In this document: positions 4,788 to 63,795 of the stretch, one piece after another
How positions within the stretch are numbered: the stretch's first letter is position 1
Layout of the letters: the number at the start of each line of letters is the position of its first letter
Origin: Rhynchonema sp. JSB1_4
Lineage: Eukaryota > Nematoda > Chromadorea > Monhysterida > Xyalidae
Length of the DNA: 64,000 nucleotides
Direction of reading: 5' to 3'
Assembly (NCBI GenBank): GCA_030248065.1
Contig: JASAMV010009032.1
Coordinates: 1-64,000, forward strand
Notes under the pieces: model-generated
Databases searched by the model: none
Told to the model about the DNA's origin: nothing
What the model saw: the letters and a program-made list of their open reading frames with translations, nothing else
Translations under genes and position numbers: made by a program

Positions 4788-7235
4788 CTCCAAGGTTGGG
4801 AATTCCTGTGGTTTGAATTCAGGCGTTGCTGGCTCTTTTGGTTTGGTTTGGTCGCTCAGAGCGGATGGAGCTGTGGGCACACGGAGAATGGTTTGAATAA
4901 ATGAGAGAGATCTTGGGCCGTTTCTGTAAATATGGTTTAAAAAGACAACTTTATTCTGTTTTTTGTGTATGTGGTATTATGCATGCAAACGGTAAAAAGA
5001 TTCTGCACGCTTCGAATAAGTTGGAGAATAAATACGATACAAACGAATTCACGTGCTATTATAAATTTCCAAATTCACCGCCGCACAGTAAAATACGCCC
5101 CATAGTTAATGTCAAGTTATAAACCCGAACGCTAACCATGCGCGGTTCTGAAACATTGCGCGCAGCTGCCTGGCTGGCTGGCAAGCTGCGTGTGTGTTGA
5201 CTGTCCGAATGCTTCACAAGTTGAATTTCGAGTTTAGAACCTAACATTAACTATGGGGCGTACTTTACTGTGCGGCAGCGAATTTGGAAATTTACTATAC
5301 AACGATTAAGTCATCTCCAGCAAAGCGATTAAGAGCTAAATGTTTTGTGCGTTTGACAAAATAAGTTGAACATGACAAGAAGTTGATTTACCACTCACTT
5401 CTGCACTTCACTCCCACCGTTGAGTGCGAAAGCTAAAATCTAAGAAACATACTTTCATTTGCAAACACGCACCTTGAGCCCATTCCACCATTGTCATTAT
5501 CGAACAGCCTCCTTGCAGCAAAGCCACCCCTGTTCATGCCTTTCCCACCGCGTCCTCTAGCTCCACCACGAAGTTGCGAATCGGTGGTCAAACTGATATC
5601 GACAGGCACCTGTTGTTTGCGTTTGCCGTGCGCATTCGCCTGAATCACATATCAATGTGAGTGTTTGTTCGCTGATGAGAACTGAATCAAAATAACTGAA
5701 GACACTGATAAGGTACACACTTGATGTGCCTTGAAGTCGATTTCGGTGCGAAACACACTCGTGAATCGCTCATTTACACATGCGGCAGTTTCGCACAAAT
5801 AGTGATGTTGGCGAAAATGTTCGCGCAATTGCTCATATTCACTGGAATCAAATAATAAATTAGATTTTACAATTCTACAAACAAACACCAATTAAAAACT
5901 AACGAATAAAATTGATTCTCTCCATCGGCGTCACAGAAATGGCAGAAATAGTGTTCCATTCGCAGATGTCGATACAAATAGTCGGAATCCACGAAACGGT
6001 CGTCGCAGAATTGGCACTGCGGATGGCCTCTAAGTTCTTTGTTGATGTTCTTTCAAATCACGAACCGTGGACAGAATTGAAAAAAATTGCGACGCAATCA
6101 TTTCTTGCGAGGCGCAACATTTTATCTTGCCAGAAATCACCAAAACGGCAGCATGAACAGCGACAACGATCCTTCTCAATCCCCAAAACAATTATGCCAA
6201 CCTTTGTAACTTTTATCCTCATCATCACCGACCCTGCGATGTTTGGCTAGATCGCCTCGGGTGCAGCACTTCCTTTCACTCGGGAATAACCGCAGATGGT
6301 TCACACACAGATCACAAAAATATCGTTCGTGCTCGCGTCGCATGTGACGATCCAGTTCGTCAAATGTGTTGAATGTTGGCCTCAAGTGAATAGCTTGTAT
6401 TTTAAGATCACGGACAATTGGAAATTGATAAAAAAATCGAGGACCGCATCAACGTTTAGAAGGCAAGCACAAGACTATGATATTTCGCAGTGAGTCACGA
6501 TGATACGGCTCAAAAAGCACAACTCACTCATTAGCACACATTGTGCAGAAATGTGCGAGAATATCGTCAAACGCGCGGATGGCGGCGACATTCTCGAATC
6601 GTATACCGTGTTTGTTGCCAATCGGTGTGCGAATGTAAGACTGCACTTGGCGACGATCGGGCAGTAGCGGGGTGGAGGTAATGAAGATCTGCTCGTGGCA
6701 CAAACGGTTTGGCATTTGGAGTATTTGACGATTGATCAATTATTTGGGCAGTTTTTAGTGAATCATAATCATATCAATCGAGGTTCAAAAAAGAATTAAG
6801 TGCAATTTTTTCGGATTTTTCCATCGTTATTGTTTCGCGGTCAAAGCCAGCGGTTTCGGCCCCCCACTGCATTCAAGTACAGTATACAGTTATGAATCAT
6901 TTTACAGCCATACGAGCAAAAATCATTTCATTATGACCAACCTCTGGCAGCACATATCGACAAATACTGCATTCCTGCTGTTCATAAAGCACACGCATGC
7001 GAATGCCGCATTCGAAGCACACAACATGACCGCAACTGCCGACACAAAAGAAGTCCTGGAAGAGAAACCCAGATCAGCTATTCCTATTCCTGACTGAAAA
7101 TTGATAAAACCTGCAAACCTGTTTCAGGCAACAAATGACACACTGATGGTCAGATACGGACATCGTACGATTTGGCGGCCCACGACCAGGTGGCTTGCGT
7201 TCGGGACTTGGCTGTGGGAATTTGGCTGCGTGCAT
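4788..7235 (-). CDS. znf598: ZNF598/Hel2-type E3 ubiquitin ligase (3' end not found)
   Basis: This family marks collided ribosomes by ubiquitinating small-subunit proteins in the cytosol. Coding exons, 5' to 3': 7119-7235, 6942-7055, 6528-6688, 6202-6380, 5904-6027, 5721-5841, 5473-5639 and 4788-4870. Phases match through exon 7. The start ATG is at 7235. The RING is split over exons 1-2: CVICC, then CGHVVCFECGIRMRVL and ECSIC. Exon 3 ends in HFCTMCAN, the first Cys pair of the next finger. Exon 4 reads YFCDLCVNHLRLFPSERK, then a GDLAKHRRVGD stretch typical of the family. Exons 5-6 carry HPQCQFCDDRF, HYFCHFCDADGE and FRTEIDFKAH. Exon 8 has EFKPQEFPTLE, matching the DFPSL-type motifs of ZNF598. 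The exon 7/8 phase fits only with an alternative donor (GTGGAA) or an unseen exon. The C-terminal part beyond 4788 was not found; the 2-kb foldback lies just downstream. Confidence 0.93.
5063..5293. repeat. Hairpin MITE-like element in a ZNF598 intron
   Basis: Terminal inverted repeats of nearly 50 bp (AAATTTCCAAATTC...GCCGCACAGTA and its complement) enclose about 130 bp with no reading frame of note. It lies in the intron after ZNF598 exon 7. The superfamily is not assigned. Confidence 0.75.
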
Positions 7236-61900: not shown

Positions 61901-63795
61901 TGAAATGACAATAATCTGATTGCGTATCAAACTTCGCGATTTGATGGAAACAGGATCTGCTTTTGTCGGGTGACATTTCTTGGTCGATTCTATTGAACTT
62001 GTTATGTGCGATTACTTTCAGTTCCAATGGAAGCCGATCACCAAGTTTGCTACCAGCTAGTGTACCAATTATTCGACGAAGACAATGGGCGGTATGCACT
62101 CTGCTGGGCACAGTCGGGTCGGGGGTGCAAAACGGTTGGGCCATGTCTTGGGATGTCGTTGTTTCTGTGGCTTTGACCAGAGTAAGAGTTTCTCACAGCT
62201 CACGTGGGAGTAACTTTAACGCAGGACAAAATAACAGAAATAGCGACATCGCAAGCTGTGGCCCAACGCATTCTGCACCCCTGACCCGACCACGCCAGCG
62301 CACAGCATACCAGCTAATATCTTTCCGAACATAGGACAGCAAAACCGCCTGACACACAGTCGCTAGGTCTGCATCGATGAAACCCGAAACATACAACAGC
62401 AGCAGTTTGATCATAATTAACTTCAAGTGCCTCAAGCTTGATACACCCAAGTGAAACATCACCACTCAACCAGATCAGCCCTCAACCAACGACCAACCCC
62501 GAGCGCGTGTGCCATCGAGCTGCCCGGTGCATCGACCGAGGGCGACTTGAACGGCAGGCGTTTGTTGGCTGTACTGCCGCCAGCCATCACCATTGACGAC
62601 GTTGGCACACTCGCACTGATCACACTTGGCTGATGTTGTTGTTGTTGTTGTTGTTGCTGCTGTGACGGGGTGCAGTGACGGGCTGGAATCACATATGGAT
62701 TGTTGGTGTTGTTGTTGGATACTGTTCAAGTACGGGGGGCCGATAAAACATATTCACCGAAACGGGAAGAAATGTAAAAGCACCACCGCGGGCAGTGGTG
62801 CATTTAGGGGGGTGTGGGGGGCCACCCCTTGGTATGGGGTATGGGGAATCGGCCGGGGGTATGGGAAATTTTTCACTTTTGAAACAACACCCCTAAGAAA
62901 TGACTTTTTGACCCCGAGAAGTACCAAAATTGGCCATTTTTGGCCAAAAACCCCACCCTCGGGTATGGGAAATTTTTGAGTTTTTGGAGAAACCCCCTCC
63001 TGGTATGGGAAATTTTTGATTTTTGGGGGTATGTATGGGAAATTTACCGAAAATTGGGTTGGGTATGGTAACTTTCAATTTCTCAACGACACCACTGGCC
63101 GAGGGGTGGCAATGGCGGTTTCGGTGGCGGCACCAAGGTCCAGTCAACAAAACCTTAACCGAAGCGTAAAACAAATCTTTGCCGCTTGATCCTTCCACGG
63201 CGGCTGATACTTGCACTATTGAAGCAGTATACCACATCACCTTGCCAAAATACAAAACAATGTGTTGATTTGCCTTAAACGTAAAAAACGCGAATCAAAA
63301 TTTTACCAGTTAAGGTCGATTTAGGTTACGGCTAATGTAACACGGTTTCCGTGGACCGGACCCACAGCCTCCACAAACAAACATCGTTTGGAATGGCTCG
63401 ACCAGTTCGGCCTTTCCGGTGGACACACAAGCCCACACAATACGACACCACCTTTACAAAGCCCGCCAACGTCAAAATGACGGATGACACCAAGCCGAAG
63501 AGCATTAACAACATGCTCACCCACCAACAACATTGACTGGCGGTCGACTTGTGTTGCTGTCGGACGAGAGCACGCCGCTGGTTGTCGTGCCGCCCGATCC
63601 GACACTCGACGTCGACTCGCGTTGCTGCACCTGCAATTCAAATACATTGATGCTTTGCGTGGCTGGAAGCTCCGTGCATGACTTTGTGACCTCGGATGAC
63701 GTGTTTTTTGTTGTCTTGCGAATCAGCTTGATGTCTTTAATGTGACAAACGTATTCGTACACAGTACAGTCTTTTTTAGGCGAATTGTTGGCCAT
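55954..63795 (-). CDS. mitf: MITF/TFEB-family bHLH-Zip transcription factor
   Basis: Nuclear factor of the MiT/TFE family (nematode HLH-30 type), controlling lysosome and autophagy genes. Exons: 63525-63795, 62498-62721, 61704-61871, 61094-61232, 60764-60839, 60550-60688, 60114-60201, 59772-59863, 57638-57746, 57290-57367, 56702-56916, 55954-56037. All phases agree; about 560 residues. Exon 2 carries nine Gln; exon 3 has the acidic activation block ELDHIIIDEILSLESEQE. The bHLH-Zip spans about 258-340: RRKKDIHNM / IERRRRYNINDRIKELGHLL / DEMKLNKGTILKASVDFIRQ, then QRQ-type zipper heptads. Exon 7 is DLESRLNAHGVPVP; exon 8 has the sumoylation-type IKQEP. Exon 11 has FSELLMDLGGG...SGDPLMS, and the last exon ends MSPDSDQQQSNRMDMS with TGA at 55954. 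Exon 1 (ATG 63795) is the least certain: it joins in phase but has no family similarity. Confidence 0.95.
56477..56624. mobile_element. A/T-run insertion with 8-bp target duplication
   Basis: Starts CAGGGTTGGGAAAAAAAAAA, like the hAT-type MITE end at 52801, and is flanked by exact CTTGGGAC duplications (56469-56476, 56625-56632). The right end is a run of A/T without a clear matching inverted repeat, so it is decayed or truncated. Lies in the last MITF intron. Confidence 0.75.
57747..59771. other. Large MITF-family intron
   Basis: About 2 kb between exons 8 and 9, which join directly in phase 0. A further phase-0 exon could be hidden here, but none with family similarity was recognised. Confidence 0.5.
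62793..63096. mobile_element. hAT-like element with GGTATGGGAAATTT repeats
   Basis: Ends CAGTGGTG and CACCACTG; flanks ACCGCGGG and GCCGAGGG match at 6 of 8 positions, a decayed 8-bp duplication. The interior repeats GGTATGGGAAATTTTT four or five times. In MITF intron 1. Confidence 0.7.

Follow-up and report, generated by a model that had tools for sequence, protein, structure and literature searches.

The window analysed here is a 64,000-nucleotide stretch of Rhynchonema sp. JSB1_4 DNA (GenBank assembly GCA_030248065.1, contig JASAMV010009032.1, positions 1 to 64,000, forward strand), which carries genes for ZNF598, striatin, dystroglycan, APH-1, MANF and MITF. Our subject is the 5' splice sites (donors) of these genes, many of which have T (U in the RNA) at the third intron position (+3), and their relation to the U1 small nuclear RNA (snRNA) genes of the species. 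The DNA is identified as nematode by protein similarity: MANF, with its exons joined from the window, has its best named matches in Onchocerca (62% identity), Ascaris (62%) and Plectus (61%). The genome assembly amounts to 204 Mb in 5747 contigs. An initial annotation had modelled 44 introns in the six genes, 19 of them beginning with GTT, and proposed a relaxed or altered 5' splice-site code. We found GTT donors throughout the genome, and two U1 genes whose 5' ends would pair with them.

We re-aligned the window genes with a spliced protein-to-DNA aligner that constrains the intron ends only to GT (or, with a penalty, GC) and AG and gives +3 zero weight. The references were the human ZNF598, APH-1, MANF and MITF proteins and, for dystroglycan, its C-terminal part. 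Twenty-five introns were aligned in five of the six genes. For 14 of them the score margin left only one GT-AG placement, and T stood at +3 in 6 of these 14 (Table 1). This is the same fraction as 19/44, with one of the six doubtful and with part of the 44 introns re-derived. The GTT donors are not a modelling choice, as the annotation had maintained, since an aligner blind to +3 recovers them. For the N-terminal part of dystroglycan, the alignment was made with splice-site weights only. For striatin, an N-terminal exon near 7.9-8.0 kb was the only part recovered in the window; its WD part had no match over threshold. Two extra GTT donors, placed by the annotation at 1783 in a gene it left unnamed and at 23077 in a membrane-protein gene, are present as sequences one position away, at 1782 (-) and 23078 (+).

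For the genome-wide survey, myosin-head exons were located by PF00063 (138 matches, 124 used, 20 stretches fetched) and each gene was aligned to a leave-one-out profile built from the other genes only. The 182 aligned introns comprised 130 confident placements, 44 that were ambiguous or non-canonical and 8 without a score; eight confident introns from recent duplicate genes (L033, L038) were dropped. The remaining 122 had G at +3 in 43, A in 41, T in 31 and C in 7. A second set, from the CCT family (PF00118), consisted of five genes over the fetched stretch and one partial gene, a subset of the CCT-family places found. Aligned to human orthologues at 57-72% identity, the five genes gave 48 confident introns out of 52, with T, G, A and C at +3 in 17, 16, 12 and 3. 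The combined sample of 170 uniquely placed introns came from 18 myosin-type and 5 CCT genes; the window's 14 introns, two introns of a CCT2 fragment and one intron of the U1C gene were kept outside it.

The pooled +3 composition was G 59 (35%), A 53 (31%), T 48 (28%, 95% confidence interval 22-36%) and C 10 (6%), and at least one GTT donor was present in 20 of the 23 genes surveyed. In the CCT2 fragment, the best placements of both introns were GTTGGT, one of them unique. The commonest T+3 donors were GTTGGT (14), GTTAGT (9) and GTTCGT (9), and the 48 had G at +5 in 43 and T at +6 in 40. The introns are of the GT-AG major-spliceosome type, GT-AG being required for counting, and G was found at +5 in 81% of the 170, which agrees with the annotation's remark that +5 G is kept. 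Non-GT donors carried a penalty in the alignment and were classed as ambiguous; among the 182 and 52 introns they formed no clear class, apart from single GC donors. GTT donors are real and genome-wide, at a frequency in these homology-aligned introns far above the few percent that the annotation would have taken as a refutation, and the relaxation at +3 proposed for the window is borne out. The window lies somewhat above the genome mean, 48/170 being lower than 19/44 (Fisher p 0.07).

It is extremely improbable that the pattern is an artefact of intron modelling. Homology alone places the introns, and 56 of the 234 myosin and CCT introns (52/182 and 4/52) were not counted as unique. Against such an artefact, +3 was unweighted, no myosin gene contributed to the profile used for it, the CCT genes share 57-72% identity with the references used, and the GTT placements are accompanied by +5 G and +6 T.

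In the interior of these introns, GT is followed by T in 34%, G in 27%, C in 20% and A in 19% of cases. Relative to this intron-internal background, A and G are raised at donor +3 (1.6-fold and 1.3-fold), T is near neutral (0.84) and C is reduced to 0.30. T at +3 is tolerated, not preferred. Neither T nor C matches ordinary U1 at this position, yet T is accepted 2.8 times more readily than C. The premise of the annotation, that +3 is A or G almost always in most animals, is too strong for nematodes. The human share of GUU introns is roughly 3%, in conflict with the published figure given next. About 16% of C. elegans introns begin with GUU, and the same share is stated for human (PMC8865678). 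The 28% GTT found here exceeds 16% (one-sided p 4e-5), and the high GUU share takes a trait of nematodes to an extreme without amounting to a new rule. A 30-genome comparison describes coupling of +3G and +5G in 70% of the metazoans it covers (PMC10599564); likewise, +5G is commoner here with G+3 (52/59 donors) than with A+3 (34/53).

U1 genes were searched with RF00003, 41 of 4243 first-look candidates being scored. Ten U1-like loci were found among the candidates scored, and a DNA search with one of them, L014, returned nine of those and no others. Position 6 of U1 is U in eight of the ten loci and A in two, L014 and L015. The 5' end reads AAACUUACC in seven loci (L018 included, which is divergent beyond it), AAACUUACUU in L017, and AAACUAACCUG in L014 and L015. 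The ordinary end, complementary to GUAAGU donors, is AAACUUACCUG, and L014 and L015 have AAACUAACCUG in its place; their first 17 bases equal those of the ordinary copies except at position 6. Because U1 position 6 faces donor +3 in standard pairing, an A there (A6) pairs with U+3. The change in U1 suggested by the annotation thus has a counterpart in two A6 genes standing beside ordinary ones, which may bear causally on the donors.

The two A6 genes score 109.4 and 106.9 bits with RF00003 over positions 1-166, 37-40 bits over the gathering threshold of 69.5. They are 85% identical to each other, and each is 83-87% identical to ordinary U1. The helices covary: over seven aligned U1 copies, 92% of pair cells are standard and 8 pairs differ in both partners (3.6 on average in shuffles, with 1 of 500 shuffles as high). 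L014 has a few non-standard pairs, three of them in stem-loop III, and both A6 genes keep the AUUGCAC loop II and U-rich Sm-type sites (GGAAUUUUUGCG and GAACUUUUUGCG). A promoter element, ATGTTTCA followed by GAATGAC, lies upstream of both, spaced as in L009, L010, L011 and L013; the second half is GAACGAC in L010 and L011, and L015 differs after GAATGAC. L010 and L011 are the same in sequence and could be two assembled copies of a single gene. The element is missing at L012 and L016. Two other loci are unusual in themselves: L017 (C3984:11908-12077) has C to U at U1 position 9, which faces donor -1, and the first half of the element only, and L018 (C2996:7288-7450) is a divergent U1-like locus (64 bits) that keeps the second half only. 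The A6 class looks old and kept at two separate loci, which speaks for function.

Duplex energies were calculated for 112 myosin donors, with no modified bases. For U+3 donors the median was -0.8 kcal/mol with ordinary U1 and -4.7 kcal/mol with A6-U1, the latter close to the median of -5.1 kcal/mol for A+3 donors with ordinary U1. Among single changes of the U1 5' end, A6 is the sole position and base that fits U+3. The donor code admits A, G or U at +3, with G at +5 kept, and the U1 genes fall into two classes, the ordinary (AAACUUACCUG) and an apparently long-lived A6 class (AAACUAACCUG). Ordinary U1 cannot pair with U+3, and A6-U1 would do so. Most probably, small nuclear ribonucleoproteins (snRNPs) containing A6-U1 contribute to the recognition of GUUGGU, GUUAGU and GUUCGU donors, and have thereby allowed U at +3 to become almost neutral. 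That a two-class U1 works in this way is in our judgement an evenly balanced proposition, and the functional link of A6-U1 to GUU donors, judged from gene and donor sequences, stands at about even odds; we infer that A6-U1 is expressed and acts on them.

Several observations weigh against such a share for A6-U1 or are neutral to it. The +5 and +6 positions are stricter in U+3 than in A+3 donors (+5G and +6T together in 37/48 vs 21/53), and the background-corrected +4 dependence of U+3 donors is like that of G+3 and unlike that of A+3 donors. Both would be expected from a rarer second U1 or from none alike; compensation at +4 to +6 fails to separate recognition by A6-U1 from mismatch tolerance. 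The +4 position is also loose, with C in 24% of the 170 donors (for example GTTCGT, GTACGT and GTGCGT), and none of the ten U1-like loci has a position 5 matching +4 C. Loop I is GAUCAUUGAG in L014 and L015 and GACCACGAAG in the ordinary copies, the U1-70K consensus being GAUCAaGAAG (GAUCAnGAAG); with loop I off consensus, U1-70K binding of the A6 genes may be altered. Finally, we know of no A6-U1 in C. elegans, despite its roughly 16% of GUU introns.

Plain mismatch tolerance is an alternative that we regard as quite possible, if still doubtful: as in other nematodes, ordinary U1 would accept U+3 provided that +5, +6 and the exonic part of the donor are favourable, later steps would be indifferent, and A6 would be minor or silent. 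The GUU share of about 16% in C. elegans (PMC8865678) is consistent with it, as are the resemblance of U+3 to G+3 donors in their +4, +5 and +6 compensation, the relaxed +4, and the presence of other odd U1 copies (L017 with C9 to U, the divergent L018, and L012 and L016 without the promoter element). Tolerance does not account for the 2.8-fold better acceptance of T over C, or for the retention of A6, the matching base, at two old loci that have the promoter element and the U1 fold. One candidate argument for A6-U1 did not hold: U+3 donors appeared to need +4 A as little as A+3 donors (15/48 and 16/53, with 35/59 for G+3), and this fell after correction for dinucleotide background.

Whole-genome counts of 9-mers were tried as a gene-model-free test of A6-U1. 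Expectations were derived from a 284 kb sample, partly of chosen loci, with a model that fits within 5% the two of three reversed controls to which it was applied. The full A6-U1 match, CAGGTTAGT, was observed 1524 times (expected 695 third-order, 802 second-order; 2.2-fold), CAGGTCAGT 1778 times (1845 and 1540), and the full ordinary-U1 match, CAGGTAAGT, 601 times (760 third-order, 0.79, and 879 second-order). The raw reversed controls for CAGGTTAGT, CAGGTCAGT and CAGGTAAGT (1857, 1315 and 1494) give a different picture. Of 20 CAGGTTAGT sites sampled, five fall in a single dispersed repeat (L058, L059, L064, L068 and L069), which contains CAGGTTAGT and is 92-96% identical over 509 bases across contigs. 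An upstream coding signal was present at 1/20 T, 2/20 A and 1/20 C sites, compared with 63/122 accepted myosin donors and 1% at random. The counts are suggestive, but the test was rejected as not decisive, because the CAGGTTAGT excess is inflated by the repeat copies among the sampled sites and the context test is underpowered. The shortage of CAGGTAAGT looks as if over-strong donors were avoided.

A change in another factor (U6, U1C, a LUC7 protein, U1-70K or Prp8) that made +3 less important is, in our view, highly unlikely. Looseness at +3 and +4 together would fit a general change in donor proofreading. The components that were found speak against it: both full-length U6 copies (L019 and L020) have the usual ACAGAG box, which goes against the U6 change suggested by the annotation. 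As for its suggestion of altered U1-associated proteins, the U1C zinc finger looks ordinary, with 38 of the first 50 residues identical to human, and LUC7 matches were found at two places in the genome. U1C is the protein that steadies the U1-donor duplex. Its gene here (L119, C5047:40540-41000) has an intron within the zinc finger, with donor GTTAGT, and feedback of GUU splicing on U1 through this intron is possible. A stronger form of the A6-U1 proposal has two parallel U1 snRNPs, ordinary U1 for GUA and GUG introns and A6-U1 for GUU introns, including that of U1C itself; we consider this unlikely, though conceivable. If true, the GUU intron set would depend on a second U1 and be switchable by its dosage.

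The coordinates of the A6 genes and of the GTT donors in the window are collected in Table 1. Elsewhere in the window, 17297-18569 and 20788-22123 form an inverted repeat whose arms carry the same open frames in opposite orientation (such as 17297-17509 (-) and 21911-22123 (+)), with about 2 kb between the arms; it resembles a large palindromic mobile element. On C264, two CCT8-like genes lie in opposite orientation, 3003-7861 (-) and 15675-20043 (+), with near-identical exon matches, and may be a recent palindromic duplication or an assembly fold-back. The canonical SL1 leader, which occurs in many but not all nematodes, had no copy at up to 2 mismatches genome-wide, and two copies at 3 mismatches, a number equal to that of the reversed control; other leaders, or no leader at all, may be in use in this species.

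Table 1. Locations of A6 U1 genes in the genome and of GTT donors in the window (a slash marks the exon-intron boundary).
Feature	Position	Strand	Basis
L014, A6 U1	C137:40934-41096		RF00003
L015, A6 U1	C4510:68156-68319		RF00003
APH-1 donor GTTGGT (GGG/GTTGGT)	50099..50104	-	single placement, homology-only alignment
ZNF598 donor GTTAGT (TTC/GTTAGT)	5898..5903	-	single placement
MITF donor GTTGGC (AAG/GTTGGC)	60544..60549	-	single placement
Dystroglycan donor GTTAGT (TGG/GTTAGT)	27820..27825	-	single placement
Dystroglycan donor GTTAGG (AAG/GTTAGG)	26231..26236	-	single placement
Dystroglycan donor GTTTTG, doubtful	26602..26607	-	single placement; splice-site-weighted run prefers 26735 GTGCTT
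ZNF598 donor GTTGGC (AAG/GTTGGC)	6196..6201	-	better of two placements; ambiguous by the margin used
ZNF598 donor GTTTGC	7113..7118	-	aligned; uniqueness unscored
ZNF598 donor GTTGGT	6936..6941	-	splice-site-weighted alignment only
Dystroglycan donor GTTGGC	26933..26938	-	splice-site-weighted alignment only
Dystroglycan donor GTTGGT	32737..32742	-	splice-site-weighted alignment only
Candidate donor GTTGGT, unnamed gene	1777..1782	-	sequence only
Candidate donor GTTAGT, membrane-protein gene	23078..23083	+	sequence only

Compensatory U1 changes in C. elegans were reportedly described by Zahler et al. in 2004. The C. elegans U1 suppressors (sup-39 and compensatory U1 changes) resemble the present case in that one 5' end is changed among several U1 genes of a nematode and acts on donors mismatched to ordinary U1, as is proposed here for A6-U1; they are laboratory mutations rescuing single mutant introns, whereas here the change is natural, looks old, lies at position 6 and matches a large share of the native introns (PMC8865678). 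The GUU share of that species is about 16%, compared with 28% here together with U1 genes able to pair with U+3 (PMC8865678). Human variant U1 (vU1) genes are likewise paralogues, many of them changed in regions that bind U1 proteins or the donor; in the text available they are not described as matched to a common donor class, while here one change fits about 28% of donors (PMC5159530). Donors of Entamoeba histolytica, GUUUGUU, have U+3 in the consensus, as is partly so here, but there U+3 is nearly fixed and U1 snRNA is cited as absent, compared with a mixture of donors and two U1 classes here (PMC6085484). In the copepod Eurytemora affinis, an altered animal donor code (GA and GG) was also noticed in gene modelling; it changes +2 in about 12% of introns, whereas here GT stays and +3 changes (PMC5714493). 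In the open literature searched, as far as its text was available, no report of an animal U1 paralogue matched to U+3 was found. As read from its gene sequence, A6-U1 is a new fact, and it fits GUU donors base for base.

The usual view is that, in animals, U1 and the donor consensus hold each other fixed. If the proposed role of A6-U1 is true, Rhynchonema would exemplify a stepwise drift of the splicing code, in which U1 was duplicated, one copy changed, and donors followed. In genomes of this kind, gene prediction trained on GTR donors will overlook introns.

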